Positions 5,355-27,409 of a DNA stretch of 32,474 nt are shown piece after piece. A program made the translations under genes and the position numbers. The notes below the pieces were generated by a model. The model worked only from the letters and a program-made list of their open reading frames with translations. It had not been told where the DNA came from and ran no database searches. How positions within the stretch are numbered: position 1 is the first letter of the stretch; the number at the start of each line of letters is the position of its first letter. The DNA comes from Roseburia sp. (lineage in GTDB: Bacteria > Bacillota > Clostridia > Lachnospirales > Lachnospiraceae), in the NCBI GenBank assembly GCA_023662875.1, contig JAMPIG010000042.1, positions 1-32,474 on the forward strand. The letters run 5' to 3'.

Positions 5355-5355
5355 G

Positions 5356-6063
5356 TCAGGAATCCCGGAGCAGGTGATCCCGATAGCGTCCGATGCATTC
5401 CGTAAACAGGCGGACGGCGCTGTCGGCGTCGCCGTTTCGGATATACCAGGTCGTCTGTACCAGCGCGCGGTAAGTATTTTGGCGGCCGGTGTATTCGCAA
5501 TAGTCTATCCAGGCGGGGACGGAGGCGGTAAAAAAGGCGTTCATGATCAGGGGCGAGATCACGTTTCCGCTGAGAGCGGCCAGCGTCTTACGGTACAGAA
5601 AGAGGGTCGTAGCGAAGGTCTCGGCGTCGGCGGCCAGGGATTTTCTCATATTTTCCTGGAGGGCTTCCAGCGTTCGGATATCCTCCGGGTCGCGGCGCAG
5701 GGCGATCTCCCGGATCGCCGGGCATTCCAGGCCCAGGCGGATATCCAGGAGGCTGACCAGCATCTTTTTGTCGGGCATACCGCCCCGGAAGCGTATGATG
5801 GCAAAGAGGGTGTCGATATTGCCGGTGCTGGTATAGTCCGCCACATAAATTCCCTGCCGGGAGACCACATCGAGAAAGCCCATGCGGGCCAGCTCCCGGA
5901 TCCCGTCGTGGACGATAGTCTTACTGATCCCCATGGTCTCCGCCAGCTCCCGCTCTGTGGGCAGGCGGTCGTTGGGCTTCAGCTCGCCGGAGAGGATCAT
6001 TTCTTCTATCTGGGACAAAAACAGCTCTTTGATCGATGGAGCGTCAATTTTTTGAAAGCGCAA
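5356..6063 (-). CDS. GntR-family regulator, FadR (FCD) subfamily
   Basis: The 235-residue protein has an N-terminal winged helix (about 8-75; LPTERELAETMGISKTIVHD and the wing SRQGIYVADY) and a helical FCD-type effector domain (about 95-230; DIRLGLECPAIREIAL). The start is TTG at 6063, chosen because AAGGAGG lies 7 nt upstream on the minus strand and no better start exists. FCD domains commonly bind a metal through one Asp and three His. The Asp-containing helix is present, but the usual His positions (F-H-x-x-L helix and the C-terminal E-H-x and H-L helices) are occupied by other residues (FLYRKTLAALSGN, TECIGRYRDHLL), so metal binding may be lost. It is convergent with GH43 and divergent from hypB; either could be its target. 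A palindrome matching the subfamily's operator type lies upstream. Confidence 0.88.
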   Translation of the reverse strand: MRFQKIDAPSIKELFLSQIEEMILSGELKPNDRLPTERELAETMGISKTIVHDGIRELARMGFLDVVSRQGIYVADYTSTGNIDTLFAIIRFRGGMPDKKMLVSLLDIRLGLECPAIREIALRRDPEDIRTLEALQENMRKSLAADAETFATTLFLYRKTLAALSGNVISPLIMNAFFTASVPAWIDYCEYTGRQNTYRALVQTTWYIRNGDADSAVRLFTECIGRYRDHLLRDS

Positions 6064-6199
6064 GAGGATTCCTCCTTATCCGTGAACAGGTTCGTTTTTT
6101 CTCGACAGGAAACTGCAGCGCAGCGCCTTTTCAATAGAATTTGAAGCCTGCGCCGGAATCGACGTGTCAGAAGCTGCCGCACATTATATCCATGTTACG

Positions 6200-6364: not shown

Positions 6365-7045
6365 ATGGAGAACGAAAGGGAATTGCGTGTTATCGAGGTA
6401 AAGAGAAGTATTTTCGAGGATAACGATAAGGATGCGGAAAGGCTGCGGCAGGAGTTGAAGGAGAAGAAGGTCTTTCTCCTAAATCTGATGTCCTCGCCGG
6501 GCTCCGGGAAGACGACGACTCTCCTTGCGTTGGCGGAGGCGCTGAGGGGCCGGATCCGGATGGGAGTCATGGAGGCGGATATCGATTCCGCGGTGGATGC
6601 GGAGAAGATGATGGCGGCGGGCGTAAAGTCCATCCAGATCCACACAGGCGGCATGTGCCATCTGGACGCCGATATGACCAGGCAGGGCCTGTACGAGTTC
6701 GGAATGGACGACGCGGAGCTGATCGTGTTGGAGAACGTGGGCAATCTGGTCTGTCCCGCGGAGTTCGACACGGGGGCGGTGAAGAATATGACGATTCTCT
6801 CGGTGCCAGAGGGGGATGATAAACCGCTGAAGTACCCCCTGATGTATGAGAGATGCGACCTGCTGGTGGTCAACAAGACGGATGTCATGCCGTATTTTGA
6901 CTTTGACCGGGAGAAGATGGAGAAGTATGCGAAAATGCGCAATCCCGGGATCAAGATTCTGTATATTTCCGCGAAGACCGGGGAAGGAATTTCGGAGCTG
7001 GCGGATTGGATTGTGGAGCAGGCGCGGGAGTGGAGAGGCTGTTGA
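6365..7045 (+). CDS. hypB: HypB, nickel-incorporation GTPase
   Basis: The 226-residue SIMIBI GTPase helps load nickel into NiFe hydrogenase (and in some organisms urease), working with HypA in the cytoplasm. ATG 6365 is preceded by GAAGAAGGA; a GTG at 6335 is in frame but weaker. Visible motifs are the P-loop SSPGSGKT (43-50), switch and G-domain metal ligands C98-H99 (GGMCHLDADM) and C130 (NLVCPAEFD), and the guanine-specificity motif NKTD (170-173). The N-terminal high-affinity CxxCGC site of E. coli HypB and the His-rich stretch of other HypBs are both absent, so it is the minimal form. The partner hypA lies 11.5 kb downstream on the same strand. No hydrogenase structural gene occurs in the window. 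About 231 bp of gene-free sequence follows. Confidence 0.93.
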   Translation: MENERELRVIEVKRSIFEDNDKDAERLRQELKEKKVFLLNLMSSPGSGKTTTLLALAEALRGRIRMGVMEADIDSAVDAEKMMAAGVKSIQIHTGGMCHLDADMTRQGLYEFGMDDAELIVLENVGNLVCPAEFDTGAVKNMTILSVPEGDDKPLKYPLMYERCDLLVVNKTDVMPYFDFDREKMEKYAKMRNPGIKILYISAKTGEGISELADWIVEQAREWRGC

Positions 7046-7276
7046 GGCTTGCGCAGAAGACAAAGAAAGTGTTGCAAGCCCGGTGCCGGTACATCGCAAG
7101 TGTGCTTTGGTTTACAGCGGGGTTGTCGACTGGCTGAATCGGAACGCTGCATGAGACAGAGCAGAACCGGAATCAGATAACAGCAGGCAACAGGACGGAA
7201 AATAAACGATTCTCGTGTGGAGCGTCTGCAGACGGCAGATCTGTCCGGGAAACGAGACAGAAAACGAGGGAGATTT

Positions 7277-8047
7277 ATGGGACAGAAAGAGACAAAGATT
7301 CTGGCGGTGGCCGGTAAGGGAGGCGTGGGAAAAACTTCTGTCGCGGCTACGCTTGTGAGGCTCCTTGTGGAGGCTTATCCGGGAAAGAAAATACTGGCGA
7401 TTGATGCCGACCCCGCGGTGGGGTTATCTACCGCGCTGGGGATCGAAGTAAAAACTACGGTGGACGATATCCGCAAGGCTGTGGTAGCGACAGTGGAGGA
7501 CGGGGATACGAAGAGCGCGATCGAGCTGCTGGGGGAGGCGCGCTACCGTATCTTTGACGCGCTTGTGGAGACGGACGGCTTCAGCTTTATCGCTATCGGG
7601 AGGCCGGAGAGCGCGGGCTGCTACTGTAAGATCAATTCTTACCTCAAGGAGGTAATCAGTATCCTCTCGGAGAATTTTGATTATGTGGTGATTGACGGTG
7701 AGGCTGGCATCGAGCAGATCAATCGGCGGGTCATGGAGAAGGTGACCCACCTGCTTTTGATTACCGATTCCAGCAAGAAGGGAACGCAGGTCATTCAGAC
7801 GATCCGTCAGGTGGCGGACGAGCTGGTGATGTACGAGAAGATCGGCGTGATCGCAAACCGGCTGCCGTCCATGGAGGTAAAGGGGCTTCTGGATACGGGG
7901 GATCTTCCGGTGCTGGCCTGTATTCCTTCGGATGCGGCGCTGGCGGAGTTTGACTTAAAGGGCGAGAATGTCTTTTATCTGCCGGGGGATGCGGCGATTG
8001 TCCGGGGAGCGCGGGAAGCGCTGACAAACATCGGGATCCTGGATTGA
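7277..8047 (+). CDS. cooC: CooC-like nickel-insertion ATPase
   Basis: The 256-residue MinD/SIMIBI-type ATPase resembles the maturation factor for the Ni-Fe cluster of CO dehydrogenase. ATG 7277 follows GAGGGAGA; the open frame upstream to 7217 has no better site. It shows the deviant Walker A GKGGVGKT (13-20), the DADP switch region (43-46), a C-Y-C motif (C115, C117) matching the C-x-C dimer-interface metal site known from CooC, and the switch II stretch IDGEAGIE (139-146). CooC relatives also include AcsF and other metallocentre ATPases, so the client need not be CODH. No cooS/acsA catalytic gene is in the window. It sits between hypB and the dehydratase genes, with 281 bp before the next gene. 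Confidence 0.85.
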   Translation: MGQKETKILAVAGKGGVGKTSVAATLVRLLVEAYPGKKILAIDADPAVGLSTALGIEVKTTVDDIRKAVVATVEDGDTKSAIELLGEARYRIFDALVETDGFSFIAIGRPESAGCYCKINSYLKEVISILSENFDYVVIDGEAGIEQINRRVMEKVTHLLLITDSSKKGTQVIQTIRQVADELVMYEKIGVIANRLPSMEVKGLLDTGDLPVLACIPSDAALAEFDLKGENVFYLPGDAAIVRGAREALTNIGILD

Positions 8048-8299
8048 AGGAACGGTTGCCGGTTGGCTCTTTCCCGCGGAGGGTAACAGCTGCGTTGATG
8101 ATAGCCTACTTTTCGTATCGAAAGCTTCAATCCGGCTTTGGGTTCGATCTGTCTGCTTTGCGTGGAGTCAAATCCCAGGATCAGGAAGGCATCTATGAAA
8201 GCAGAAGGAAAACAGAAAATTGCGCTGTGGTCAGGGAAAGAAAGGGAAGCGTTTTGCCAGGCACCATGGAGAGACGATTTTTGTACGGAACGTGAAAAC

Positions 8300-8312
8300 G
8301 CCGCGAAGCGGC
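8300..8312 (+). other. Small hairpin just before a ribosome binding site
   Basis: GCCGC-GAA-GCGGC forms a 5-bp GC stem directly before the GAGGGGG ribosome binding site of the dehydratase gene at 8329. It could shape translation of that gene; it has no U-tract. The rest of the 8048-8328 gap shows no feature I can support. Confidence 0.35.
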
Positions 8313-8328
8313 GAACGAGGGGGTTGTT

Positions 8329-9519
8329 ATGAAGGACTTAAAACACTTGTACTACTTTGAAAAGCTCCTGGAGGACGCGAATAACGAGCTGGTCCGTCAG
8401 GCGAGGCAGGAGGGGAGGAAGTGTGTCGCTACGCTCTGCGAGAATGTGCCGGAGCCGCTCCTGAATCTGCCGGGAACCTTTTCCGTGCGGCTGCGTGCGC
8501 CGCGCACCGGCTCCATCGAGATGGGAACCTACTATCTGACCAGCTTTCTCTGCGAGTATACGCGGGCGCTTCTGGAGCGGGCGATCGAGGGCGGCTTTAA
8601 TTTTACGGACTGTATGATTGTCCCAGACGGCTGCACGATGTTAAACCGCTGCGCGGAGAACATGGAGCTTCTAAAGACTATGAAGGAGGAGCATTTCTTC
8701 CACGAATACATGGAAATTCCCATGAAGGCGGACGACAATGGCCTGAATCTCTATACGCTGCAGTGTACGAACCATATTCTGAAGCCTCTGGCGGAGAAAT
8801 TCGGCATCGATACCTCCGACGGGGCGATCCGCAAGGCGGTGGAGGAGCACAACCGTATCTGCGACCTGATCCGCAAAATCGGCGATTACCGCAAGGAGGA
8901 GAATCCCAGGATCACAGGCTACGAATTTCATATCCTTACCATGGCCTCCTATGCCGCGCCGAAGGATCTGTTGCTGGATAAGCTGGAGGAGACTCTGGAG
9001 GAGCTGAAGACCAGAAAGCCGGACGAGAAAAATCCTTATCGGGCGAGAGTGGTGCTGGTGGGCTCCGAGGTGGACGACGTGGACGTGGTGCGGCTCATCG
9101 AGGAGTGCGGGGCTTATGTCTGCGCGGACCGTTTCTGCTACGGCTCCTTCCCCGGCAGGGACAGGATCGAATTGAACGATGAGGAGGACGCATTGACGCA
9201 GATCTGCCGCCAGTACATGTACCGGGGGCAGTGCGCGAGATATATGAATCAGGACAAGATTCAGGAGAGGCGCAGATACATAGATGAGCTGGCGAAGGAA
9301 TACCGCGCGGACGGCATTATTTACCAGCAGATCAAATTCTGCGACCCCTGGGCTTACGAGCGCACCGTGGGGACGCAGGTGCTGCGGGAGGATTACCATT
9401 ATCCGGTGCTTTCCGTGGATCGTCCTTACGCCATCGGAAATTCCGGCCAGCTGCGCACCCGCGTACAGGCCTTTATGGAAAGCGTTGAACTGAAAAAAAT
9501 TCAGGGAGGTGGCAGATAG
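8329..9519 (+). CDS. 2-hydroxyacyl-CoA dehydratase-family subunit (HgdA/HgdB-like), first
   Basis: The 396-residue protein belongs to the family that includes 2-hydroxyglutaryl- and (R)-lactoyl-CoA dehydratases, class I benzoyl-CoA reductase subunits and double-cubane-cluster proteins. Such subunits carry a [4Fe-4S] or related cluster and receive electrons from an ATP-dependent activase. ATG 8329 has a GAGGGGG site. Likely cluster cysteines are C102 and C108 (VPDGCTMLNRC) and C338 in the very typical IIYQQIKFCDPWAYE segment; further Cys lie at 260, 265 and 270 (EECGAYVCADRFC). The stop overlaps the start of the second subunit by one base, which argues for a heterodimer made in equal amounts. 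The actual substrate is not shown; no CoA-transferase or acyl-CoA dehydrogenase gene is nearby. Confidence 0.85.
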   Translation: MKDLKHLYYFEKLLEDANNELVRQARQEGRKCVATLCENVPEPLLNLPGTFSVRLRAPRTGSIEMGTYYLTSFLCEYTRALLERAIEGGFNFTDCMIVPDGCTMLNRCAENMELLKTMKEEHFFHEYMEIPMKADDNGLNLYTLQCTNHILKPLAEKFGIDTSDGAIRKAVEEHNRICDLIRKIGDYRKEENPRITGYEFHILTMASYAAPKDLLLDKLEETLEELKTRKPDEKNPYRARVVLVGSEVDDVDVVRLIEECGAYVCADRFCYGSFPGRDRIELNDEEDALTQICRQYMYRGQCARYMNQDKIQERRRYIDELAKEYRADGIIYQQIKFCDPWAYERTVGTQVLREDYHYPVLSVDRPYAIGNSGQLRTRVQAFMESVELKKIQGGGR

Positions 9520-11069
9520 TGGGAAAGGAAGTCGGAAGTGAAAAATTGGGAAGCTTCTATACCACCGGCAAGGTGAGAAAACGCCGGGAATGGCGGGGCG
9601 TGCAGGATACGCTTTACGATTATGTGCGCTGGCTCCACATCATGGGGATTCTGGCGAAATTTATCGTAAAGCCCCGGAACATCAAGGCGTTCTTCCGCTA
9701 TCGCTGGATGAGCAACTATCTGGCGGCACCCATGATGGTAGACCGCCATACCCAGGGACTGCGGGGGCCGCAGCTGCGCATCGCTCATACGGAATTTGAC
9801 CTGGTGATGGAGGATGTGGCAAAGCTGCTTGACAATCTGTTTAAGGGAGACCGGAAGGTCGGGAATAACAAGGCCTTTTCCGACAAGGTGGTTCTCATGG
9901 ATGAAAACGAGATGACGGCGGTAATGATGGGATTCCCGACCCTGAAGGGGTTAAGCCGGGAGACGCCGTCGGTCTATGTGTCCGTGCTGCTGAATCAGTA
10001 TGCGGCCTGCCATTATATCGATGTGGCCCAGGAGTTTGGCCTTCCCGGGGATGTCTGTCCCATGCCAGAGGCGGAGGCGGGGGTATCCATCGACGACGAC
10101 TTCCCGGTGCTGGGAGCCTGCGCCATCCAGTGTAATACGACCTGCGACGGCTCGCTGATGGGAAACGGCGTGATCTCAAAGCGTCTGGAGCTGGAGGACG
10201 GGATTCCCTGCTTTCAGCTGGCCGCTCCCCTGCGCCACAGGGAGGACGACGTACAGGAATACGCGGCACAGGAAATCCGCAACGCCATTGCGTTTATTGA
10301 GAAGCACACCGGCGAAAAGTGGGACTGGGATTATTACTTTGAATGTGCGAAGCGGGTGAACGAGTCCACCCGCCACCGGCTGGAGTGGCTGGAGATGAAC
10401 AAGACGGACTACCCGCAGGTCTTCGGCTCCAATCTGGCTCTTTACACGGAGACCAACTACATGGCGATCTGCGGCAAGCTGCAGGAGTTTGTGGAGGCGG
10501 ATCGGAAGATTTCGGCCCTCGCGGAAAAGGCTTACAAAAAGAAAACCATGGTGGTGAAGGAATACCGCCACAGGGCGATCATCTGGGGCGTCCAGTCTCA
10601 TTTCTATTTTGATTTCCTGATCTGGCTGCAGAATTGCTGGGGAATCCTGCCGCTCACCGATATGCTTTCCATGGTGTCTACCAAGGTGCTTTCGGAGGAT
10701 GACAGGGAGCAGGCGATCTACGATATGGCGTGGCTGACGGAAAACATGATCATGCGGAACCGGACCCACGGCGGCTACAAAGTGCTGCTGGATGAGCTCT
10801 GGGAGTACTGCGAGGAGTTTCGGGCGGACACGGTGATCCTCTGGGAGCACATCAGCTGTAAGGCGCTGGACGGTATGCACGGACAGTTCGAGGAGAAAGC
10901 GCGGGAGAAGGGAATCCACCTGATCTGGGTGGATCACGATCTCTTTGATCCCAGGGTGATTTCCCGGCAGGAGATCCGGGATCAGGTCAACCGCTACATG
11001 CGGACGGTCTTTCGGGAGGAGCCGCTGGATCCCACGCTGGAGGTGCTCACGGACGAGCATTCCTGGTAG
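9519..11069 (+). CDS. 2-hydroxyacyl-CoA dehydratase-family subunit, second (larger)
   Basis: The 516-residue protein starts at GTG 9519, overlapping the previous stop (TAGTG), with GGGAGG upstream. It is longer than common HgdA/HgdB subunits (about 380-480 residues), mainly by an N-terminal extension of ~60 basic residues. Cys-rich segments that may bind the Fe-S cluster are DVCPMPEAE (C180) and GACAIQCNTTCDGS (C201, C205, C209). The C-terminal part (about 400-500) ends with WVDHDLFDPRVISRQEIRDQ followed by a helical tail, in place of the KFCDPW segment of its partner. This division of motifs suggests one subunit carries a different cluster ligand set. It most likely forms a heterodimer with the 8329 product and is activated by the 11685 product. 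Confidence 0.82.
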   Translation: MGKEVGSEKLGSFYTTGKVRKRREWRGVQDTLYDYVRWLHIMGILAKFIVKPRNIKAFFRYRWMSNYLAAPMMVDRHTQGLRGPQLRIAHTEFDLVMEDVAKLLDNLFKGDRKVGNNKAFSDKVVLMDENEMTAVMMGFPTLKGLSRETPSVYVSVLLNQYAACHYIDVAQEFGLPGDVCPMPEAEAGVSIDDDFPVLGACAIQCNTTCDGSLMGNGVISKRLELEDGIPCFQLAAPLRHREDDVQEYAAQEIRNAIAFIEKHTGEKWDWDYYFECAKRVNESTRHRLEWLEMNKTDYPQVFGSNLALYTETNYMAICGKLQEFVEADRKISALAEKAYKKKTMVVKEYRHRAIIWGVQSHFYFDFLIWLQNCWGILPLTDMLSMVSTKVLSEDDREQAIYDMAWLTENMIMRNRTHGGYKVLLDELWEYCEEFRADTVILWEHISCKALDGMHGQFEEKAREKGIHLIWVDHDLFDPRVISRQEIRDQVNRYMRTVFREEPLDPTLEVLTDEHSW

Positions 11070-11082
11070 GAGGAAATGGGGC

Positions 11083-11646
11083 GTGAAGACTTTGATATGG
11101 AACGGCTCCCCAAGGCGGAACGGCGATACCGCCAGTTTGATTGAAAAAGTCACCGAAGGAATAGAAGGCGAGTATAAAATTGTAAATGCGTACAGGTGCA
11201 ATATTTCTCCCTGCGTCGATTGCAGGTTTTGCCGGGAAAACAGAGGATGCGCTATAAACGATGAGATGACGGAGCTGTACCAATACATACAGGAATGCGA
11301 CAATATTTTGATCGCTTCGCCTCTCTATTTTTCGGAATTAACGGGGAAGCTGCTGGATGTCGGAAGCAGGCTTCAAACCTGGTTTTGCGCCAGATTTTTC
11401 AGGAAGGAAGAACCTGTTCCGAAATCAAAAAGAGGTGCGGTTATTTTAACAGGGGGAGGAGACGGCAATATCGATAAGGCTTATGACACGGCCTGTACGC
11501 TTTTGCACCATATGAATTGTCATACGATTCATGAAGCGGTATTCAGTCATCACACCAATGAAAGACCTGCGGTTGAGGACGAAAAGGTACTGTTGGGAAT
11601 AGAGAGTATTTTGAGTTTTTTTGCAAGTGAAAACAGGACGGAATAG
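11083..11646 (+). CDS. Flavodoxin-fold NAD(P)H-dependent FMN reductase
   Basis: The 187-residue protein has the N-terminal FMN phosphate-binding motif LIWNGSPRRNGDTASLI (residues about 4-20), then SPCVDCRFCRENRGCAINDEM with a C-x2-C-x2-C-x5-C arrangement, and IASPLYFSELTG, as in iron-sulfur flavoprotein-like and NADPH-dependent FMN reductases. The start is GTG 11083 behind TAGGAGG. It lies 13 bp after the dehydratase subunit and 38 bp before the activase, so it is very likely co-transcribed. Its base composition is visibly more AT-rich than both neighbours, which suggests a later insertion. It might pass electrons within the cluster or be a passenger; sequence alone does not decide. Confidence 0.82.
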   Translation: MKTLIWNGSPRRNGDTASLIEKVTEGIEGEYKIVNAYRCNISPCVDCRFCRENRGCAINDEMTELYQYIQECDNILIASPLYFSELTGKLLDVGSRLQTWFCARFFRKEEPVPKSKRGAVILTGGGDGNIDKAYDTACTLLHHMNCHTIHEAVFSHHTNERPAVEDEKVLLGIESILSFFASENRTE

Positions 11647-11684
11647 GAAGGAAAAACCTGTGTAAAAAGGAGGAAGAGAGGAAG

Positions 11685-12521
11685 ATGAAATATTACGGAG
11701 GATGTGATTCCGGAAGCACCTATACGAAGTGCGTGATCATCGACGAGAACGGCAAGATGGCGGCGGACGTCACCCTGCGCAGCCGGATCAATTCGGTGCT
11801 CAGCGCCCAGGACGCTTTAAAGCAGGCCGTAGAGCAGGTGCCGGATTTAAACAGTCCGGAGGAGCTGGAATATCTGGTGGGAACCGGTTACGGGCGGAAC
11901 AAGGTGCCCTTTGCGGACGAAAACATCTCGGAGATCAGCTGTCACGCTATGGGGGTTCATGTGGCGGATCCCAGCGTAAAGGCCATCATCGATATCGGCG
12001 GGCAGGACGTCAAGGGAATTTCCGTAGACACGGACGGGACGGTGTTGAACTTTGCCATGAACGATCGGTGCGCGGCGGGAACGGGACGTTTTTTTGAGGC
12101 GATGGCGAGAGCCTTCGAGATGGATCTGGAGGAGTTTTCCAAGCTGTCGCTGAAGGCGAAAAACGTGATTCCCATCACGTCGCAGTGTACCGTGTTCGCG
12201 GAGTCGGAGGTCATCTCTCTGGTGGGCGAGGGAAAGCCTATGGAGGAGATCGCGGCGGGAATCGAGCTTTCCGTTGCCAAGCGGTGCTTCGTCATGTCGA
12301 AGAAGGCGGGGGCGGTGGAAAAGATTACCCTGACCGGCGGCTGCGCGAAGAATGAGGGGCTGAAGGAGGCCATCGAGAAGGTGCTGAATCTGAAGGTGAT
12401 CGACCTGCCCATCGACCCGCAGCTCATGGGAGCGCTGGGGGCGGCGGAGTATGCAAGGCAAAAATGTGCACGGAATGAAGATTTTCTAAGGTTGGAAAGT
12501 ACCCAACCTAAGAAAATCTAA
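11685..12521 (+). CDS. 2-hydroxyacyl-CoA dehydratase activase (HgdC-type ATPase)
   Basis: The 278-residue protein is of the BadF/BadG/BcrA/HgdC family (ASKHA fold), a homodimer with one bridging [4Fe-4S] cluster that couples ATP hydrolysis to low-potential electron transfer into the dehydratase. ATG 11685 follows GGAGGAAGAGAGG. Motifs are the phosphate-1 loop GCDSGSTYTKCVIID (6-20), IDIGGQDVKGI (102-112), the cluster Cys C129 in NDRCAAGTGRFFE and C168 in TSQCTVFAESEVIS, and the adenosine motif LTGGCAKNEGL. The family core ends around GALGAAEYARQK; the last ~18 residues (ARNEDFLRLESTQPKKI) are encoded by a long hairpin and look like an added tail. It serves the two upstream subunits. Confidence 0.92.
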   Translation: MKYYGGCDSGSTYTKCVIIDENGKMAADVTLRSRINSVLSAQDALKQAVEQVPDLNSPEELEYLVGTGYGRNKVPFADENISEISCHAMGVHVADPSVKAIIDIGGQDVKGISVDTDGTVLNFAMNDRCAAGTGRFFEAMARAFEMDLEEFSKLSLKAKNVIPITSQCTVFAESEVISLVGEGKPMEEIAAGIELSVAKRCFVMSKKAGAVEKITLTGGCAKNEGLKEAIEKVLNLKVIDLPIDPQLMGALGAAEYARQKCARNEDFLRLESTQPKKI

Positions 12522-12530
12522 ATCATTCCG
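12471..12530 (+). repeat. Long hairpin overlapping the 3' end of the activase gene
   Basis: The arms CGGAATGA + AGATTTTCT + AGGTTGG pair with CCAACCT + AGAAAATCT + TCATTCCG: 24 base pairs, with an A-A mismatch and a 3-nt bulge, around a 7-nt loop. The activase stop TAA (12519-12521) lies in the right arm. There is no U-tract. It may be an mRNA-stability or processing element or a small inserted palindromic element. Confidence 0.75.
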
Positions 12531-12601
12531 GGAAGAACGCCAAGAGGGGGCGCAGCCCACCTCTTTGGGCGGGCGTTCTTCCGGACTTGCAGCAATTGTT
12601 C
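12531..12601 (+). repeat. Second long hairpin, containing 61-bp repeat copy A
   Basis: It directly follows the previous hairpin. GGAAGAACGCC (12531-12541) pairs with GGCGTTCTTCC (12572-12582); inside, AAGAGG pairs with CCTCTT and GGGC with GCCC around a 3-nt loop. Bases 12541-12601 match 30043-30103 at 55 of 61 positions, so this is one copy of a dispersed intergenic repeat. Confidence 0.8.
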
Positions 12602-12627
12602 ATAACGGAAAGGAACGGTGAAGGAGA

Positions 12628-12792
12628 ATGCTGGCGGTCAAGATAATCGGGATTATTGCGGCGGTAATCGCGGGGCTGTTTGTGTTGACGTTTCTGGTCT
12701 ATTTTTTCAATCTCGACATGAAGCTGACGTCAATGCTTGCGCCTTTGTTCGAGAAGCATTATGATAAAATAGACAGGGATAAGCATTTATAG
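12628..12792 (+). CDS. 54-residue single-pass membrane protein
   Basis: This short gene has a good ribosome binding site (GAAGGAG, 5 nt before ATG 12628) and ends 5 bp before the next start, so it is probably translated with it. The product begins MLAVKIIGIIAAVIAGLFVL, continues with TFLVYFF, and so has one transmembrane helix of about 25 residues followed by a short tail (NLDMKLTSMLAPLFEKHYDK) with amphipathic character. I know no named family. Its place between the activase and the cysteine-motif protein suggests a membrane anchor or small partner for the cluster's enzymes; that is inference. Confidence 0.7.
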   Translation: MLAVKIIGIIAAVIAGLFVLTFLVYFFNLDMKLTSMLAPLFEKHYDKIDRDKHL

Positions 12793-12797
12793 ACGAT

Positions 12798-13526
12798 ATG
12801 AAACTGTACGATGAAACCATACAAAAATTTCAGGCGCTTCTGGGGACGGGGCAGGAACGCAGCCTGCCTCTGGGCGAGACGGACTGGAAGGACGTCTCGG
12901 ATCGGAGTATGATCCTGCGGAGCGAAATGGCCTATGAGCTGGGCGGGGAGGGATTTCCCGCCACCGGCTGTACGGTGGTTACGGCGGATTCGGATTTGGT
13001 TCCGGAGGACAAAATCACGCTTCTGGGTCCGGATCTTCCTCAGATCGACCGGGATGTACCCTACGCCCGAATCGCCTTTGTGAGGGTGACGGAGGAAGCG
13101 CTGGGAGAAGGGCAGGCCCTGTATCAGGCGATCCGGAATCTGGAATATACGAGATACCACTTCTACCCGGAAGGATTTATGATGCGCGTCTCCGCTTCCG
13201 GGCAGAAGGAAAGCGTCCGGGTCGGCAGAGAGGCCCTGAAAAGAGGACTGGATTTTACGAAGACCGGAAATCGGATGATAACCGCTTTCCGCAGACGGAT
13301 CTCCGTCGAGGCGGTGCAGATCTTTTATGTGACGGCGAAGGAGGCGGATTATCCGGCGCTGCGGCAGTATGCCGCGGAGGCGGAACGCATTACAAAGACC
13401 ATTGATCACATTATGAAGACGGCGGTGATGGATTGCGGCGCCTGCAGCCTGCAGAAGGTCTGCGACGAGGTGGAAGGGCTGAAGGCCCTGCATTTCCGGG
13501 AGAGACGGGGTTCGTCCGTCGGGTGA
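12798..13526 (+). CDS. Cysteine-motif protein, possibly related to CO dehydrogenase/acetyl-CoA synthase
   Basis: The 242-residue soluble protein starts at ATG 12798, 5 bp after the small membrane protein gene; a spaced ribosome binding site lies in that gene's last codons (ACAGGGATAAG). Readable segments are an N-terminal LGETDWKDVSDRSMIL region, a middle PYARIAFVRVTEEALGEGQ and RYHFYPEGFMMRVSAS region, and a C-terminal MDCGACSLQKVCDEVEGLKA segment giving C213-x2-C216-x5-C222, a plausible metal or Fe-S site. The style recalls proteins annotated as acetyl-CoA synthase/CODH-related (CdhC-like) in acetogens, but this is from memory and the A-cluster motif of real acetyl-CoA synthase is not visible. 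With HypA, HypB and CooC nearby, a nickel-linked role is attractive but unproven. It could equally be an uncharacterised Fe-S protein. Confidence 0.6.
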   Translation: MKLYDETIQKFQALLGTGQERSLPLGETDWKDVSDRSMILRSEMAYELGGEGFPATGCTVVTADSDLVPEDKITLLGPDLPQIDRDVPYARIAFVRVTEEALGEGQALYQAIRNLEYTRYHFYPEGFMMRVSASGQKESVRVGREALKRGLDFTKTGNRMITAFRRRISVEAVQIFYVTAKEADYPALRQYAAEAERITKTIDHIMKTAVMDCGACSLQKVCDEVEGLKALHFRERRGSSVG

Positions 13527-13560
13527 CGCCAGGATATATCAAAAACGGTTCTGCGACATG

Positions 13561-13674
13561 GAAAGATTTGCGATGCGTGTTGCAAATTGTTCACTACTAC
13601 TGAAAGATTTGCGGCGTTTATTACAAATCTTTCACTACTACTGAAAGATTTGCTTGATTTTTGAAAAATCTTTC
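13561..13674. repeat. Three tandem 41-bp units, each a hairpin
   Basis: Units start at 13561, 13602 and 13643, an exact 41-bp period. Each begins GAAAGATTTGC, has a variable 8-12-nt centre, closes with a version of CAAATCTTTC (perfect in unit 2, imperfect in units 1 and 3) and the first two end with ACTACTACT. The 23-nt stretch at 13590-13612 is repeated exactly at 13631-13653. The array lies directly upstream of the ATPase gene and covers its likely promoter. Confidence 0.85.
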
Positions 13675-13682
13675 AGTATGAT
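13654..13682 (+). promoter_or_regulatory. Likely promoter for the ATPase gene, inside the repeat array
   Basis: TTGATT (13654-13659) and TATGAT (13677-13682) are 17 bp apart. The -35 lies in the loop of the third hairpin and the -10 just after it. Transcription would start only about 15 bp before ATG 13704, at the GGAGG ribosome binding site, giving a very short leader. Confidence 0.5.
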
Positions 13683-13703
13683 AAGGCTGGAGGTGTTTTC
13701 AGG

Positions 13704-14894
13704 ATGATTGTCAGAGAGCATTATATTCAGCCAATCCGGGAGTTTTACGATTCGGATTTGATTAAAATTATCACGGGAATCCGGCGCTGTGGCAAGTCCG
13801 TTATTTTGCAGCAGATTATGCGGGAAATCGGGCAAAGGACGGATAACCTGATTTTTATTAATTTCGAGGATAAGCGCGTATCGGCCAATATTTCCGATGG
13901 AAATGCACTGATAGATTATGTGGAGAGCCATCGCAAAAAAGGGAAATGTTATCTGTTTTTTGATGAGATACAGGTGCTTGACGGCTGGCAGGATGCCTGT
14001 AAGACGTTGCGTCTTTATGACTATTCTCTTTTTATCACAGGTTCTAATTCGAAGCTGCTGTCTGGGGAGTTTACGAAGGAACTGAGCGGAAGATATGTTT
14101 CGTTTCGTATCCGCCCGTTTGTCTATAAGGAAATTCTGGAATATGAAAAGGAGCTGGGGAAAGAGAATGCTTCCATAACGGATTACCTGGTCTGGGGCGG
14201 ATTTCCGAAGCGATTTGAATTCGACAGCCAGGAGGCGCAGCGCAGATATCTCGAAGATTTGGACGAAACAATTATCACGAACGACCTGATCCACAGGCAC
14301 AGAATCCGGAAGGAGAACTTGTTTCAAAGTTTTGTGAATTTCGTTTTGCGTTCTAACGGCAGGATTATTTCGGCACAGTCCGTTCGCGATTATATCAAAA
14401 GAGAACATGAGTCCTGTTCGATCAATACGATCATGAAATATCTTGGGTATTTGGAAGAGGCGTATATTATAGAATCGATTAAGAGGTACTCTACAAGAAC
14501 AAAGCGAGAGCTCAGCTATTATAGAAAAACATATAATGCAGATGTATCGTTTAATTCGCTGCGGTGTATGGATAACCGATTTGACCTTACGCATAATCTG
14601 GAAAATGTGGTATATAATGAATTAATTTATATGGGTTACAAGGTATGGGTATACGATAATGCGGGAAAAGAAATTGATTTTCTCGCGCAGAGCGGAAACA
14701 AAAAATATTATATCCAGGTTGCGTATAGCGTAGCGGAAGAGAAGGCGTATACACGGGAGTTTGGCGCATTCTCTGGAGTGGAGGATTTGTCGCGGAAAAT
14801 ATTAATCACAAATGATGACATAGATTATTCTACAAGTGTCGTCCGTCATATCAAATTATATGATTTTCTGCGGATGGACAGTCTGGAGGACTGA
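13704..14894 (+). CDS. AAA_14 / DUF4143-type ATPase
   Basis: The 396-residue protein belongs to the widespread ATPase family with an N-terminal AAA domain and a C-terminal DUF4143 domain. Walker A is GIRRCGKS (25-32), Walker B YLFFDEIQ (D87, E88), the sensor-like motif ITGSNSKLL follows, then RIRPFVYKEIL and the typical WGGFPKRFE. A winged-helix section lies around 215-270. The C-terminal part (LENVVYNELIYMGYKVWVYD, then GKEIDFLAQ and YYIQVAYS) carries the E...D...Q-x-A/K arrangement of a restriction-endonuclease-like fold. Family function is not settled. ATG 13704 has GGAGG about 10 nt upstream. The gene is AT-rich compared with its surroundings and breaks the metal-redox cluster, which suggests horizontal acquisition. 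Confidence 0.88.
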   Translation: MIVREHYIQPIREFYDSDLIKIITGIRRCGKSVILQQIMREIGQRTDNLIFINFEDKRVSANISDGNALIDYVESHRKKGKCYLFFDEIQVLDGWQDACKTLRLYDYSLFITGSNSKLLSGEFTKELSGRYVSFRIRPFVYKEILEYEKELGKENASITDYLVWGGFPKRFEFDSQEAQRRYLEDLDETIITNDLIHRHRIRKENLFQSFVNFVLRSNGRIISAQSVRDYIKREHESCSINTIMKYLGYLEEAYIIESIKRYSTRTKRELSYYRKTYNADVSFNSLRCMDNRFDLTHNLENVVYNELIYMGYKVWVYDNAGKEIDFLAQSGNKKYYIQVAYSVAEEKAYTREFGAFSGVEDLSRKILITNDDIDYSTSVVRHIKLYDFLRMDSLED

Positions 14895-14954
14895 TAGCGG
14901 ATTGTTTTAAACCCGGTCGGGAAGTGTATGCCGGAGCGGAAAGGAAGAATCCAT

Positions 14955-15665
14955 ATGCAAGATGCTTATGTGGGAGATATAGGGGACTATGGCAAATATG
15001 GATTGTTGAGAAGGATAAGCAAGACTTCGTTCTGCTTGGCAGTTAATTGGTATAAAGTGAAACCTGCAGGAGTAGATAAACAAAAGGATGAAAAAGGGAT
15101 TGAGTACCTGAACCGCCCGGAAATATATCGAAAATATGATCCGGAATTATTTGACGAATTGTTTCGTCTGGTAATAAAGGAACAGAAGCGTAAAATCGAA
15201 GAAATAGAAGCGCTGGATATTGGCGCTGCCAGTTTCTTTTCTGAGGAAATTCCGAAGGAAAGAGACATGTGGCATGAGCAGGGGTTACTGGAAACGCAGA
15301 GAGCAGATATTGTTTTTTTAGATCCGGATAATGGTTTGGCTACCGGAAAAATGATAAAAAGAAATACTTATTCTGAAAAACATGTTTTATGGAAGGAATT
15401 AAGAGATTATTATGTCAGGGGTCAAAGTGTGATTTTATATCAACATCGACCGCGGATGACAAAGGATGAGGCCGTGTTGGAAGGAATCAGGGAATTTAAC
15501 AGGTCATACCTGAAGGCAGATTTTCTGTCAGGGCTTAAATTTACACCGTATCAAAACAGATATTATTTCTTTTTCTGCCATAAAGAACATGTGGATGAAT
15601 TAAAAAAGGTGATTGATGATATGGACGAAAACTGGCAGAAAATATGTAAACAAATTGAAATTTAA
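14955..15665 (+). CDS. Uncharacterised protein with DIGDYGKYGLLR and DPDNG motifs
   Basis: The 236-residue protein starts at ATG 14955 behind AAGGAAG (7-nt spacing); an in-frame ATG at 14928 has no such site. I recognise the family pattern but no function: YVGDIGDYGKYGLLRRI at the N-terminus (5-21), IVFLDPDNGLATG (119-131), VILYQHRPR (159-167) and YYFFFCHKE near the C-terminus. The acidic DPDNG and conserved His/Arg suggest an enzyme, possibly nucleotide- or nucleic-acid-acting; that is a guess. Like the ATPase 60 bp upstream it is AT-rich, so the two probably arrived together. It ends 33 bp before the large flavoprotein gene, whose own strong ribosome binding site is retained. Confidence 0.7.
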   Translation: MQDAYVGDIGDYGKYGLLRRISKTSFCLAVNWYKVKPAGVDKQKDEKGIEYLNRPEIYRKYDPELFDELFRLVIKEQKRKIEEIEALDIGAASFFSEEIPKERDMWHEQGLLETQRADIVFLDPDNGLATGKMIKRNTYSEKHVLWKELRDYYVRGQSVILYQHRPRMTKDEAVLEGIREFNRSYLKADFLSGLKFTPYQNRYYFFFCHKEHVDELKKVIDDMDENWQKICKQIEI

Positions 15666-15698
15666 GATTAAGAACAAAAAACAAGGAGGATAAAAAAC

Positions 15699-18509
15699 AT
15701 GGCTTTTGACATGGAGCAGTACGAAAGGTGGCCTGCAAACCACAAACACGATCAAAATCCCAGCAAGAAGATTCTTGCCCTGGGAAAAAAGATCACGGAT
15801 GTAGCCGCCCACAAGCTGGGAAGCGTAAAGGTGGAGGATCCGGAATATTGGGGTCTGGCCGAGCTGATCACGGAGGAGATGGCGGAGGTGGGCCTCGCCA
15901 TGAAGCTGAGGACGCCCTATACCTTTGCCGAGATGTGTAAGCTGTGCAAGATCGACAAAGCGGGGGAGGAGAAGTTCCAGAAGCTCTTAGACGAGATGAG
16001 CTACATCGGTCTTCTGGAGTATGATTACGGTTATCACTACGATCATAACGGCCGCACCCACGAGCAGACGGAGCGCAGATATGTGCTGCCTATGTTTGTG
16101 CCCGGCTCGGCGGAGCTGTTCAACATGGAGGAGCTGCCCGACAGGAGTAATCCCAGACTGCGGGATCATCCGGACGTTGCTTCCTTTTTTGAGCGCATGA
16201 CCTATATTCCCCTGGCGGGCATTACCCAGATGGTGCCGCCCGGAGGCGCAGGGATCGGTATGCATGTCATCCCGGTGGAGAAGGCGATCTCCATGGAGAA
16301 TCAGTCGGTGGATCTGGAGCATCTCTCCTACTGGCTGAAAAAGTACGAGGGTCACATCGGTGTGGGACGCTGCTCCTGCCGTGCTTCCCGCAAGGTGCTG
16401 GGAGAAGGCGTGGCGGACGACGATTTCGGCTGGTGTATCGGGGTAGGCGATTTCGCGGATTACTGCCGCGAGACGGGCAAGGGCCACGATATCACCTACG
16501 ACGAGGCGATGGCGATTCTGCAGAGGGCGGAGGAGAACGGCTTCGTACATCAGGTTACCAATATCGACGGCGAAAATAAGATTTTCGGTATCTGTAACTG
16601 TAACGTCAATATCTGTAACGCCCTGCGTACCTCGCAGCTCTTTAACACGCCGAATATGTCCCGTTCCGCCTATGTGGCGCATGTTGACAAGGAAAAGTGC
16701 GTGGCCTGCGGACGCTGCGTGGAGTACTGCCCCGCGGGAGCGACAAGGCTCGGCCAGAAGCTTTGCACGAAGGACGGCAAGGAGGTCGAATATCCGAAGC
16801 AGGAACTTCCAGACGAGGTGAAATGGACGAAAGACAAGTGGGATCTCGACTACCGCGACAACAACCGGATCAACAGCCACAAGACGGGCACTGCGCCCTG
16901 TAAGACAGCCTGCCCGGCTCATATAGCGGTACAGGGTTATCTGAAGAAGGCTTCCCAGGGCAAGTACAAGGAGGCTCTGGCCCTGATCAAGAAGCAGAAT
17001 CCCTTCCCGGCGGTGTGCGGCCGGATTTGTAACCGCCGCTGCGAGGACGCCTGCACGAGAGGAACCATCGACGAGGCGGTTGCCATCGACGCGGTAAAGA
17101 AGTTTATTGCGGATCAGGATCTGAAGGCGGAGACCAGGTACATACCGCCCGTAGTGATCCCGGCCAGCATCCATATGGATCATTTCCCCGAGAAGATCGC
17201 CATCATCGGCGGCGGCCCCGCGGGGCTGAGCGCGGCCTTCTATCTGGCGGAAAAAGGGTATCGTCCTACGGTGTTTGAGAAGAATGAAAAGCCCGGCGGT
17301 ATGCTGCAGTATGGAATTCCCTCCTATAAGCTGGAGAAGGATGTCATTGAGGCGGAAATCGACGTCATGCGCGAGATGGGCGTAGAGATTAAGACCGGCG
17401 TGGAGGTCGGAAAGGACGTTACCTTAAAGCAGCTGCGCGAGCAGGGCTATAAGGCGTTCTATATTGCCATCGGCTGCAGCGCGGGACGGCGTCCGGGCGT
17501 CCCGGGGGACGACGCGGAGGGAACCATGACAGCCATCGACTACCTGCATGAGGCAAATACGGGAAATACCTCCTTTACGGGAAGAGTCGTCGTCGTAGGC
17601 GGCGGAAACGTGGCGGTGGACGCGGCGAGAGTCAGCGTCCGGAGCGGCGCTTCGGAGGTTACCATGCTCAGCCTGGAGTCCGAGAAGGAGATGCCTGCTT
17701 CCGCGGAGGAAATCCGGGAAGCGACAGAGGACGGCGTCCTGATCAAGAACGGCTGGGGTCCGAAGGAAGTATTGACCGAGGGCGGAAAGGTGACAGGCGT
17801 TGTATTTAAGAAGTGTCTCTCCGTTATGAACGCGGAAGGGAAATTTGCGCCTGCCTATGACGAGAACGATACGATTACGCTGGAGTGCGACCGGGTGATC
17901 TTTGCCATCGGCCAGAGAACGGTATGGGGGAACCTGCTGGAGGGAGAGAAGACCGAGTTTAACGGCCCCGCGATTGTGGCGGATAAGCTGACCTTCCAGA
18001 CCGGCCAGCCGGATATCTTTGTGGGCGGCGACGTCTATACAGGGCCGAAGTTTGCCATCGACGCGATCGCGGCGGGACATTACGCGGCGGAGTCCCTGCA
18101 CCGCTATGTTCATAACGGTCATATGACCATCGGCCGGAACCGCTGGGAATTCAACGAGCTGGATAAGAACAATATCCGTGTGGAGAGCTATGATAACTCT
18201 TCCCGCCAGATTGAGGCGCTGGATCCTTCCGTTCCCGCAAAGTCCTTCAGGGATGCGCATGTCACCTTTACCGAGGAACAGGTGAAGAAGGAGACCGCGC
18301 GCTGCCTGGGCTGCGGCGCTACCATAGTGGACGAGAACAAGTGTATCGGCTGCGGCGTATGTACTACGAAGTGCGAGTTTGACGCGATCACGCTGCACCG
18401 CGACCGTCCAGAGTGTACGAATATGATAAAGGCGGAGGATAAGTTCAAGGCGATCATCCCTTATCAGCTGAAGCGTGCGGTGAAGATTGTGAAGAATAAG
18501 AATAAGTAA
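15699..18509 (+). CDS. Multi-cluster Fe-S / FAD / NAD(P)H oxidoreductase (GltD-like)
   Basis: The 936-residue protein starts at ATG 15699 after AAGGAGG. Order: an N-terminal region (1-320) with Cys-rich segments GRCSCRASRK (C225, C227), DFGWCIGVGDFADYC (C246, C256) and GICNCNVNICN (C299, C301, C306); a ferredoxin motif KCVACGRCVEYCP (334-345); a GltD/dihydropyrimidine dehydrogenase-type Fe-S domain (CKTACP at 401 and CGRICNRRCEDAC at 440-452); the FAD site IAIIGGGPAGLSAAFYLAEK (500-519); the NAD(P)H site VVVVGGGNVAVDAARVS (about 630); the flavin closing motif GGDVYTGPKFAIDAI; and a C-terminal ferredoxin motif KCIGCGVCTTKC. It can move electrons between NAD(P)H and a low-potential carrier and is the best candidate donor for the activase. 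hypA follows after 17 bp. Confidence 0.85.
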   Translation: MAFDMEQYERWPANHKHDQNPSKKILALGKKITDVAAHKLGSVKVEDPEYWGLAELITEEMAEVGLAMKLRTPYTFAEMCKLCKIDKAGEEKFQKLLDEMSYIGLLEYDYGYHYDHNGRTHEQTERRYVLPMFVPGSAELFNMEELPDRSNPRLRDHPDVASFFERMTYIPLAGITQMVPPGGAGIGMHVIPVEKAISMENQSVDLEHLSYWLKKYEGHIGVGRCSCRASRKVLGEGVADDDFGWCIGVGDFADYCRETGKGHDITYDEAMAILQRAEENGFVHQVTNIDGENKIFGICNCNVNICNALRTSQLFNTPNMSRSAYVAHVDKEKCVACGRCVEYCPAGATRLGQKLCTKDGKEVEYPKQELPDEVKWTKDKWDLDYRDNNRINSHKTGTAPCKTACPAHIAVQGYLKKASQGKYKEALALIKKQNPFPAVCGRICNRRCEDACTRGTIDEAVAIDAVKKFIADQDLKAETRYIPPVVIPASIHMDHFPEKIAIIGGGPAGLSAAFYLAEKGYRPTVFEKNEKPGGMLQYGIPSYKLEKDVIEAEIDVMREMGVEIKTGVEVGKDVTLKQLREQGYKAFYIAIGCSAGRRPGVPGDDAEGTMTAIDYLHEANTGNTSFTGRVVVVGGGNVAVDAARVSVRSGASEVTMLSLESEKEMPASAEEIREATEDGVLIKNGWGPKEVLTEGGKVTGVVFKKCLSVMNAEGKFAPAYDENDTITLECDRVIFAIGQRTVWGNLLEGEKTEFNGPAIVADKLTFQTGQPDIFVGGDVYTGPKFAIDAIAAGHYAAESLHRYVHNGHMTIGRNRWEFNELDKNNIRVESYDNSSRQIEALDPSVPAKSFRDAHVTFTEEQVKKETARCLGCGATIVDENKCIGCGVCTTKCEFDAITLHRDRPECTNMIKAEDKFKAIIPYQLKRAVKIVKNKNK

Positions 18510-18526
18510 GGAAAGCAGGGATTGAC

Positions 18527-18871
18527 ATGCATGAGCTGGGAGTCGTGTTTTATGTCGTCCGCGACGTAAAACAGGTGGCGGAGGAGAACGCCGTGGAAAA
18601 GATTTCCTCCGTGACGCTGCAGATCGGCGAGGTGTCGGGGATTATCCACGATTATCTGATCGACTGCTGGAACTGGGCGAAGAAGAAGGAGCCCGTGATG
18701 GAGGAGGCGGAGCTTAAGATTGAGCAGATCGACGCAGTCACCTTCTGCGAGGACTGCGGGCAGGAATACCCGACGGTACAGTATGCGAAGGTCTGTCCGC
18801 ACTGTGGCAGCGAGCATACTTATCTTCGACGGGGGAACGAGTTCCTGATAAAAGAAGTAGAAGCATATTGA
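18527..18871 (+). CDS. hypA: HypA, nickel metallochaperone
   Basis: The 114-residue HypA/HybF-family protein delivers nickel together with HypB. The nickel-binding N-terminus M1-H2-E3 is intact, and the zinc site has two CxxC pairs: C74/C77 (FCEDCGQEY) and C90/C93 (VCPHCGSEH), the classical arrangement. Length is normal for the family. ATG 18527 is 17 bp after the large oxidoreductase, with GGAAAGCAGGG upstream, so the two are surely co-transcribed. It closes the cluster begun by hypB; a perfect palindrome follows 4 bp after the stop. Its separation from hypB by ten kilobases of redox genes, and the lack of any hyp C/D/E/F gene, are unusual. Confidence 0.95.
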   Translation: MHELGVVFYVVRDVKQVAEENAVEKISSVTLQIGEVSGIIHDYLIDCWNWAKKKEPVMEEAELKIEQIDAVTFCEDCGQEYPTVQYAKVCPHCGSEHTYLRRGNEFLIKEVEAY

Positions 18872-19095: not shown

Positions 19096-19177
19096 GAGGA
19101 ATGGTCGGAGGGAACGCGGTTTTCCATAAGGCTTGCGGGAGACCGGCCGACAAAGACAGGATCAGAAAGGGTGTAGT

Positions 19178-20620
19178 ATGGGAGTTTTATCGGAATTGGA
19201 GCCGAAGAGCGTCTTCGGCTACTTTGAGGAAATCACAAGGATCCCGCATGGGTCGGGCAACGTAGATCGGATCAGCGATTACCTTGTGGAGTTTGCGAAA
19301 AAGCAGGGATTATTTTACCGACAGGATGAATTGAAAAACGTGATTCTGGTAAAGGAGGCCACGCCGGGGTACGAGGAGAAGCCTGCTGTTATCCTGCAGG
19401 GACATATGGATATGGTGGCGGTGAAAAAGCCGGGATGTGAGATCGATCTGGAAAAGGAGGGACTGCGCGTCGCCGTGGAGGGAGACCGGGTCTATGCGGA
19501 GGGCACCAGCCTGGGCGGAGACGACGGGATCGCCGTGGCTTACGCGCTGGCCCTGCTGTCCTCGGACACCCTGAAGCATCCGAAGCTGGAGGTAATTCTT
19601 ACGGTGGATGAAGAGGTAGGAATGGACGGCGCGAGAGGAATCGACCTTTCCGGGCTCACAGGCCATCGCATGATCAACCTGGACTCCGAGGAGGAGGGGA
19701 TCTTTTTGACCAGCTGCGCCGGGGGCGCGCGGGTAAAGTGCCGGATTCCGGTGGCGGAGAGCCCGGCGGAAGGACTGACATACCGCGTGACGGTGGACGG
19801 ACTGCTGGGCGGACACTCCGGCGGCGAGATTCATAAGGAACGGGGCAACTCCAACTGTCTGTTTGGAAGACTGCTGTACCGACTCTGTCAGAGGATGCCC
19901 GTGCGGCTGGCTGAGCTGCAGGGCGGACTGGCGGACAATGCGATTCCCCGGGAGACGACGGGACTGCTGGTGATTCGGAAGGAGGACAGCGAAAGCTTTG
20001 GAGCCCTGCTGGATACGGTGGAGAAGGAGCTGCAGGGAGAGTTATCCGGGAAGGATCCCGGCCTGCGGATCCGTGCGGTCGAGGAAGAGGGAAAAACGAC
20101 ATGTATCAGCGCGGAGGATACCCTGCGGACGGCAGCCTTTTTGTGGAGTCTGCCCAACGGCGTCCAGGCCATGAGCGCGGATATGCCGGGGCTGGTGGAA
20201 ACCTCTCTGAACTTAGGGATCCTGCAGTACAAAGACGGAACGGTATGCGCTGAGTTTTCGGTGCGCAGCAGCGTGGAGAGCGCGAAGAAGGCCCTGATCC
20301 GGAAGCTGCAGGCTGTCACTGGGCTGGCCGGGGGCGAGGCGGAGGTGAGCGGGGATTACCCGGGCTGGCGTTTCCGGAAGGATTCTCCCCTGCGGGAGAA
20401 GATGGTGGCGCTGTACGAGGAGATGTACGGGGAGAAGCCGAGGGTAGAGGCGATCCATGCGGGATTGGAGTGCGGTATTTTAGGCAGTAAGATCGAGGAT
20501 CTGGATTGCGTCTCCATGGGCCCCGATATGCGGGATATCCATACGACGGAGGAAACCTTAAGTATTTCTTCTGTGCGGAGAGTCTGGGAATACCTGGTGA
20601 GGCTGCTGGAAAGTGTGTAA
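19178..20620 (+). CDS. pepD: Aminoacyl-histidine dipeptidase (M20 family, PepD)
   Basis: The 480-residue cytoplasmic metallopeptidase cleaves Xaa-His and other dipeptides. ATG 19178 is preceded by AGAAAGGGTG; the frame is open to a TTG at 19133 without a better site. M20 metal-site motifs are present: QGHMDMVAV (H76, D78), GGDDGIAVAYALA (D115/D116), TVDEEVGMDGARG (E145 catalytic, E146 metal), and the late HAGLECGILGSK with the closing GPDMRDIHTTEETLSISSV. The lid domain SGGEIHKERGNSN is typical for PepD. Length matches the family (about 480-490). It probably stands as a single gene or leads a short unit with lacZ 133 bp downstream; no functional link is evident. Confidence 0.93.
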   Translation: MGVLSELEPKSVFGYFEEITRIPHGSGNVDRISDYLVEFAKKQGLFYRQDELKNVILVKEATPGYEEKPAVILQGHMDMVAVKKPGCEIDLEKEGLRVAVEGDRVYAEGTSLGGDDGIAVAYALALLSSDTLKHPKLEVILTVDEEVGMDGARGIDLSGLTGHRMINLDSEEEGIFLTSCAGGARVKCRIPVAESPAEGLTYRVTVDGLLGGHSGGEIHKERGNSNCLFGRLLYRLCQRMPVRLAELQGGLADNAIPRETTGLLVIRKEDSESFGALLDTVEKELQGELSGKDPGLRIRAVEEEGKTTCISAEDTLRTAAFLWSLPNGVQAMSADMPGLVETSLNLGILQYKDGTVCAEFSVRSSVESAKKALIRKLQAVTGLAGGEAEVSGDYPGWRFRKDSPLREKMVALYEEMYGEKPRVEAIHAGLECGILGSKIEDLDCVSMGPDMRDIHTTEETLSISSVRRVWEYLVRLLESV

Positions 20621-20708: not shown

Positions 20709-23843
<3,135 letters not shown>

Positions 23844-27403: not shown

Positions 27404-27409
27404 GAATTA

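Follow-up and report, generated by a model that had tools for sequence, protein, structure and literature searches.

The window, a stretch of 32,474 nucleotides of Roseburia sp., carries a conserved gene core that joins two HGD-D subunits (HgdB1 and HgdB2) and an activase to a membrane peptide, an AcsF-like ATPase, and CdhCs, a free-standing homologue of the ACS A2 domain. In the reading that we prefer, held as a whole at slightly under even confidence, this core specifies a membrane-tethered reductase that is driven by ATP and belongs to the class I benzoyl-CoA reductase/DCCP superfamily; a dedicated, probably nickel-loaded accessory Fe–S protein would serve it. The initial annotation had described nickel chaperones wrapped around an ATP-activated dehydratase-type module; its observations are confirmed in part, and its interpretation is supported in part. 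All genes it named lie on the plus strand in the place and order given, and its suspicion of something new that involves nickel is upheld for a different reason, an ACS relative that had gone unseen. This suspicion is strengthened because the ACS-domain homologue comes together with an AcsF-like ATPase.

All features of the locus are encoded on the plus strand. Furthest upstream is a HypB-type GTPase (6365–7045; TIGR00073, 236 bits, cut-off 121), whose start at 6365 is an ATG within a longer frame. There follow the AcsF-like ATPase of the CooC family (7277–8047, in a frame open from 7217), the BzdN-like subunit HgdB1 (8329–9519; PF06050, 1e-85, 289 bits, cut-off 28), the BzdO-like subunit HgdB2 (9519–11069; PF06050, 1e-35, 124 bits, cut-off 28), an FMN_red protein (11083–11646; PF03358), an HgdC-type activase (11685–12521; TIGR00241, 228 bits, cut-off 125), a 54-residue single-helix membrane peptide recognized by the one hydrophobic stretch in its sequence (12628–12792), and CdhCs, a 242-residue protein with a CX2CX5C motif and a match to Pfam CdhC (12798–13526). 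An IsrA-like Fe–S/FAD/NAD(P)H oxidoreductase of 936 residues (15699–18509) and a HypA-type nickel chaperone (18527–18871; PF01155, 3e-32) complete the set. The FMN_red gene has a GC content of 0.45 and recurs in 3 of 80 HgdB2 loci, once as a strong match at the same place (L035) and twice as a weak match at other places; the protein is probably a late addition outside the core.

Between CdhCs and the IsrA-like gene lies a low-GC pair (13704–15665), consisting of an AAA_14/DUF4143 gene (13704–14894, GC 0.42) and a gene for a 245-residue protein without known family (14928–15665, GC 0.38). The pair is absent at the corresponding place in the relatives examined and looks like a recent insertion that split the operon; AAA_14 homologues occur elsewhere in the loci of two relatives (L058 and L074). 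Low GC and absence at this place in relatives led us to reject both genes as parts of the system. The surroundings are ordinary: an IS66-family transposase gene (284–1396), a PTS EIIA-domain protein and a GH43 protein upstream (2497–6144), and an M20 peptidase, a beta-galactosidase, a DEAD helicase, an IspF-type (YgbB) protein, CysS, an RNase III-domain protein, and a SpoU methylase downstream (19133–32435).

HgdB1 and HgdB2 have the ligand positions of a class I benzoyl-CoA reductase. Specifically, six cysteines of HgdB1 align with the ligands of BzdN and are kept in 103–109 of 109 homologues, and three cysteines of HgdB2 align with those of BzdO and are kept in 103–106 of 106, with C209 one position off, between the neighbors Cys128 and Cys129 of BzdO. 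These are the six [8Fe-9S] and three [4Fe-4S] ligands named in the accessible part of PMC11971306. HgdB1 is thus predicted from its sequence to carry an [8Fe-9S] double-cubane site and HgdB2 a three-cysteine [4Fe-4S] site. Besides the three cysteines that match BzdO, other cysteines of HgdB2 are conserved as well (C373 in 105/106, C201 in 94/106), those at C201 and C205 incompletely; HgdB2 also has an N-terminal helical extension. Its structure model matches DCCP, HadB, and BzdO, DCCP best. Among the activase homologues, the first cluster cysteine motif is kept in 64/64 and the second in 63/64.

Both subunits exceed the PF06050 cut-off and are accompanied by an activase, which places them in the superfamily. 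The scores for its curated families all stay below cut-off: 92 bits against 454 for the Bzd-type family TIGR03190, 152 and 40 bits against 350 for the DCCP family NF040772, 90 bits against 700 for HadC, and 23 bits against 750 for HadB. In support of the initial annotation, each subunit forms its own clade at support 99 and is separate from eight DCCP-type references, in a tree whose references include no certified dehydratase (HadC was the top match for 5 of 10 scanned, all below cut-off). The genome of the window (G000) holds a second HgdB1–HgdB2 pair on contig C63 (L169, 7212–10021) that has no CdhCs alongside and is followed by a dihydrofolate reductase-family gene. In two genomes, HSP90-family proteins directly follow paralogous sets of HgdB1, HgdB2, and membrane peptide (L173, 11149–13005; L174, 1030–2919).

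CdhCs qualifies the earlier statement that the window holds no classical nickel enzyme, because it scores 34.4 bits against a cut-off of 24 for Pfam CdhC (the beta subunit of ACS) and has the ACS A2-domain fold. It is the only CdhC-family match in the window's own genome (151 contigs, 92% complete). The three cysteines of CX2CX5C are kept in 63/63 distinct CdhCs proteins. The complete A-cluster motif CX2CX8CX9C occurs in 0/63, compared with 30/30 reference ACS, and the CGC triplet is missing in 61/63, so the site may hold only iron. The correspondence of the cysteines to the A-cluster comes from a MAFFT alignment and from a part of the model that has low confidence, and the profile–profile alignment of CdhCs with ACS ends before the cysteine motif; the comparison suggests an ACS A2 domain with a three-cysteine remnant of the A-cluster site. 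A tree of 45 sequences, built by a quick method from 22 of 30 ACS and 23 of 68 short forms, separates the ACS from the short forms by a branch with support 100; long-branch warnings were raised, one of them for L188, and our claim leaves aside the placing of distant forms. Retention of CX2CX5C in every CdhCs and the split in the tree led us to reject a decayed ACS. A corrinoid partner, prompted by the ACS fold, was likewise rejected, as none was recognized among those neighbors that were scanned, a part of all. We judge it somewhat more likely than not that CdhCs carries nickel.

By its place in the tree, the ATPase of the window groups with the ACS-side members of the CooC family. Its best match among solved structures is Carboxydothermus CooC1 (1.6e-17), with the CYC motif aligned, and a CxC motif is present in 51/51 ATPase homologues of HGD-D operons. 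We examined 18 CODH/ACS loci from other members of the Bacillota: two CooC-type ATPases are present in 13, one kind only in four, and only the other kind in one; the two ATPases of the 13 loci (from L193–L209 and L180) fall into clearly separate clades. In a midpoint-rooted tree of 59 sequences, with the two kinds labeled by similarity score, 17 ATPases of the first kind, most of them adjoining CODH, split off at support 100. The 28 HGD-D-operon ATPases taken from the 51 form a clade at support 98, which stands beside 14 ATPases of the second, ACS-side kind at support 78. The AcsF-like ATPase adjoins CODH in 2 of the 18 CODH/ACS loci (L208 and L209). AcsF inserts nickel into ACS. The naming of these ATPases varies between papers (the accessible part of PMC8671834 calls the first ATPase of the Moorella cluster acsF and the within-cluster ATPase an isoform); we therefore use AcsF-like for the second type, however it is named.

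The 936-residue oxidoreductase contains a GltD-like core (residues 398–804) and an N-terminal part without family match. Its CxC motifs at residues 225 and 299 are 74 residues apart, as are those at 180 and 254 of IsrA (VUZ27132.1), described in the available text of PMC10134865 as a 901-residue FAD/NADH/multi-Fe–S protein in which the authors propose nickel. The assignment to the IsrA group (clade 9; ~900 residues, GltD-like core, two CxC motifs, HypA/HypB neighbors) reflects likeness in build, motifs, and neighbors. The same text reports HypA near 73% and HypB near 56% of 988 IsrA homologues. In our loci, the IsrA-like gene is present in 25/26 that hold HypA and 13/15 that hold HypB, and in the three exceptions (L181, L035, and L045) the locus runs to the contig end; HypA is missing nearby for 29/46 CdhCs genes. 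Because nearly all HypA and HypB loci hold the IsrA-like gene, the two chaperones probably serve this flavoprotein. The idea that they load the HGD-D pair, on which the initial annotation had built, was rejected, since both track the IsrA-like gene. Butyrivibrio has a different flavoprotein after CdhCs, of 687 residues and of the Old Yellow Enzyme/BaiCD/bilirubin reductase kind (scanned in one locus, L170), and frames of similar size are found in L171, L172, and L178.

The gene set is conserved in other genomes, as the initial annotation had expected. Of 61 related genomes, 11 carry CdhCs and the same 11 carry HgdB2; all 11 belong to the genus of the window. Kinship ignored, an identical set is one arrangement in C(61,11), or 2.4e-12, a degree of co-occurrence that chance does not explain. 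Scanning named genomes with HgdB2, an approach that favors HgdB2 carriers, confirmed 414 relatives, of which 80 were kept; by their titles these are mostly Lachnospiraceae, Oscillospiraceae, and Butyrivibrio, with some Erysipelotrichia-type and Treponemataceae bins. Around these 80 HgdB2 genes, many of them on short contigs, we found the membrane peptide in 76 loci, HgdB1 in 71, CdhCs and activase in 35 each, the ATPase in 30, the IsrA-like gene in 29 (one weak), HypA in 22, and HypB in 11. TIR-domain proteins with Sel1 repeats occur among scattered operon genes in L032 (11255–13237) and L033 (4598–7555).

Most loci were fetched by HgdB2, so genome-wide figures and loci found by CdhCs alone are less biased; the latter hold an HGD-D subunit in 12/12. 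Whole-genome search of 24 carriers, chosen from the 80 as cultured strains, long contigs, and varied groups, gave one short CdhCs in 24/24. HgdB2 and activase adjoin CdhCs in 17 of the 20 loci returned, as the operon first found or a different one, and the other three loci are short or partial. For 46 CdhCs genes preceded by 5 kb or more of sequence, drawn from 61 distinct genes over 110 loci, same-strand neighbors within 7 kb are the ATPase (45), HgdB1 (45), HgdB2 (45), the activase (44), the membrane peptide (40), the IsrA-like gene (19), HypA (17), and HypB (10). Six genomes carry 14 HGD-D pairs in all, one to four each, and one CdhCs per genome. Exceptions are G334, with two CdhCs; L177, with CdhCs and ATPase and no HGD-D within 7 kb; and L028, with CdhCs and the pair but neither activase nor ATPase close by.

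A CODH match is lacking in the window's genome and in 33 of 35 carriers; the two that have one also hold the only full ACS found among the 24 carriers searched. Urease gave no match in any of the 35 carriers. The [NiFe]-hydrogenase large subunit PF00374 has no match in the window's genome (92% complete), and its matches in 10/35 carriers are partial, covering only the first 69–70 of 508 positions. These results support the initial annotation; the absences are provisional because many carrier genomes are drafts. Over 398 genomes of the phylum, the CdhCs profile matched in 69: short frames in two (G000 and G160), three frames of 412–416 residues in two genomes, and otherwise ACS-sized frames of 684–784 residues.

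G160 belongs to another order of the phylum, in which short CdhCs genes occur in 6/71 genomes. Where contigs are long enough to be read (L034, L188, and L192), the distant operon runs through two acyl-CoA dehydrogenases, one or two helical proteins, HgdB1, HgdB2, two activases, CdhCs, and the ATPase. The earlier remark that no acyl-CoA dehydrogenase is present thus holds within the window but not for this version. The helical proteins of 594 and 227 residues and their relatives lie between the acyl-CoA dehydrogenases and HgdB1 (L034, 14186–16685; L188; L192); the 594- and 227-residue proteins gave no Pfam match at 1e-5 and no NCBIfam match at 0.01.

The analysis establishes the families, the cysteines, the conservation of the genes, the clades, and the co-occurrence across genomes. 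We infer the following working, from electron path and substrate to the role of CdhCs and its nickel. Electrons from NAD(P)H would enter via a flavoenzyme whose kind differs by lineage. The activase would spend ATP to push them into the [8Fe-9S] double cubane of HgdB1, from which they would pass to the three-cysteine [4Fe-4S] cluster of HgdB2, the putative site of a difficult reduction. The target of this reaction may be a membrane-associated molecule that is either dearomatized or reduced at an unactivated C=C bond. We propose that the substrate is unsaturated or aromatic because IsrA (putatively), the Old Yellow Enzyme-type proteins, and the acyl-CoA dehydrogenases all act on C=C bonds; a membrane association is suggested by the membrane peptide and by the extra N-terminal part of HgdB2. 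The AcsF-like ATPase would charge CdhCs with nickel, and HypA and HypB would serve the neighboring IsrA-like flavoenzyme. CdhCs itself would be a redox activator or carrier common to all reductase pairs of the cell, acting upstream of the reductase or passing metal to it. A bolder form of the idea, which we regard as possible but doubtful, is that CdhCs is a living small ACS nickel site: a three-cysteine Ni–Fe–S centre loaded by the AcsF-like ATPase, recharged with the help of the ATP-driven activase, and the obligate partner of a new double-cubane reductase clade. Bacteria mostly devoid of CODH/ACS would then possess an ATP-driven Ni–Fe–S reductase system.

Nickel would be dispensable if CdhCs were a plain three-cysteine [4Fe-4S] electron carrier, donating to the activase in place of ferredoxin and built or docked with the help of the ATPase. 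Class I benzoyl-CoA reductases require a low-potential electron donor, and the invariant three cysteines combined with an A-cluster motif that is never complete would suit such a carrier. However, the ATPase is of the kind whose task is nickel insertion into ACS, and there is no evident reason for building a carrier on an ACS fold; we give this explanation a minor but real share of our confidence. Closest to the idea of the initial annotation is a CdhCs that acts as nickel carrier or insertase and, with the AcsF-like ATPase, loads the open cluster site of HgdB2, making the reductase itself a Ni–Fe–S enzyme. One CdhCs for one to four pairs and the extra cysteines of HgdB2, C373 and C201 among them, would fit this role, which is nevertheless unlikely, as C201 and C205 are incompletely kept and, in the accessible part of PMC11971306, the Fe-only cluster of BzdO needs no more than three ligands.

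The sharing of CdhCs between several pairs and its tight linkage to reductase genes are also what would be expected if CdhCs and the ATPase helped to assemble the HgdB1 [8Fe-9S] cluster and had neither a redox nor a nickel role. According to the available text of PMC11971306, E. coli with a bzdNO plasmid produced BzdNO that contained its [8Fe-9S] cluster. Clusters of this type therefore do not in themselves require such factors, and we hold this explanation to be improbable, marginally more so than the insertase. The superfamily and the activase type would also be those of an ordinary 2-hydroxyacyl-CoA dehydratase that lies by chance beside unrelated nickel genes. The separate clades of both subunits (in a tree without a certified dehydratase), the distance to the HadC and HadB cut-offs, and the conserved partner genes make it highly improbable, and we rejected it.

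Double-cubane reductases operate at very low potential; the benzoyl-CoA/dienoyl-CoA couple lies below -700 mV at pH 9 (PMC11971306, accessible part). The gene set suggests an undescribed, possibly nickel-assisted route to very hard reductions, and no description of the core module was found in the open-access papers searched, subscription journals lying mostly outside the search. A conserved link between a double-cubane reductase and a piece of ACS, in gut and rumen anaerobes mostly without CODH/ACS, would join two old metal systems, and cultured Butyrivibrio would then permit a direct test of a role for nickel. With 414 HgdB2 relatives in one genome collection, the activity may occur commonly in animal guts, whichever substrate it acts on.

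Several known systems share parts of this assembly. DCCP with its reductase has the double-cubane cysteines and the activase in common with it and is the best structural match of HgdB2. CdhCs is not known to accompany DCCP. DCCP is a homodimer in the accessible part of PMC11971306, whereas two different subunits in separate clades are found here. The class I benzoyl-CoA reductase Bzd/Mbd (BzdNOPQ), as described in the same text, shares the HGD-D heterodimer, the six plus three ligand cysteines, and an ATP-dependent activase. In contrast, the subunits described here form clades of their own, score below the family cut-off, go with a single activase gene (the distant operon has two), and are partnered by the membrane peptide, CdhCs, and the AcsF-like ATPase; no benzoate genes were recognized in the window. 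ACS (AcsB/CdhC) with AcsF shares the A2 fold, the start of an A-cluster-like cysteine motif, and the ACS-side ATPase, but ACS has about 700 residues and CdhCs about 240, with an incomplete motif and mostly no CODH/ACS in the genome. IsrA, the putative isoprene reductase of Acetobacterium wieringae, shares with the 936-residue protein the GltD-like core, an N-terminal part without assigned family, two CxC motifs at the same spacing, and HypA/HypB neighbors, whereas the isr operon given in the available text of PMC10134865 is without HGD-D pair, activase, or CdhCs. The activation complex of methyl-coenzyme M reductase (PMC12176620) likewise combines ATP with complex 8-iron clusters, there reducing a nickel centre; it is archaeal, uses McrC, Mmp7, and component A2 instead, and its nickel is held in F430.
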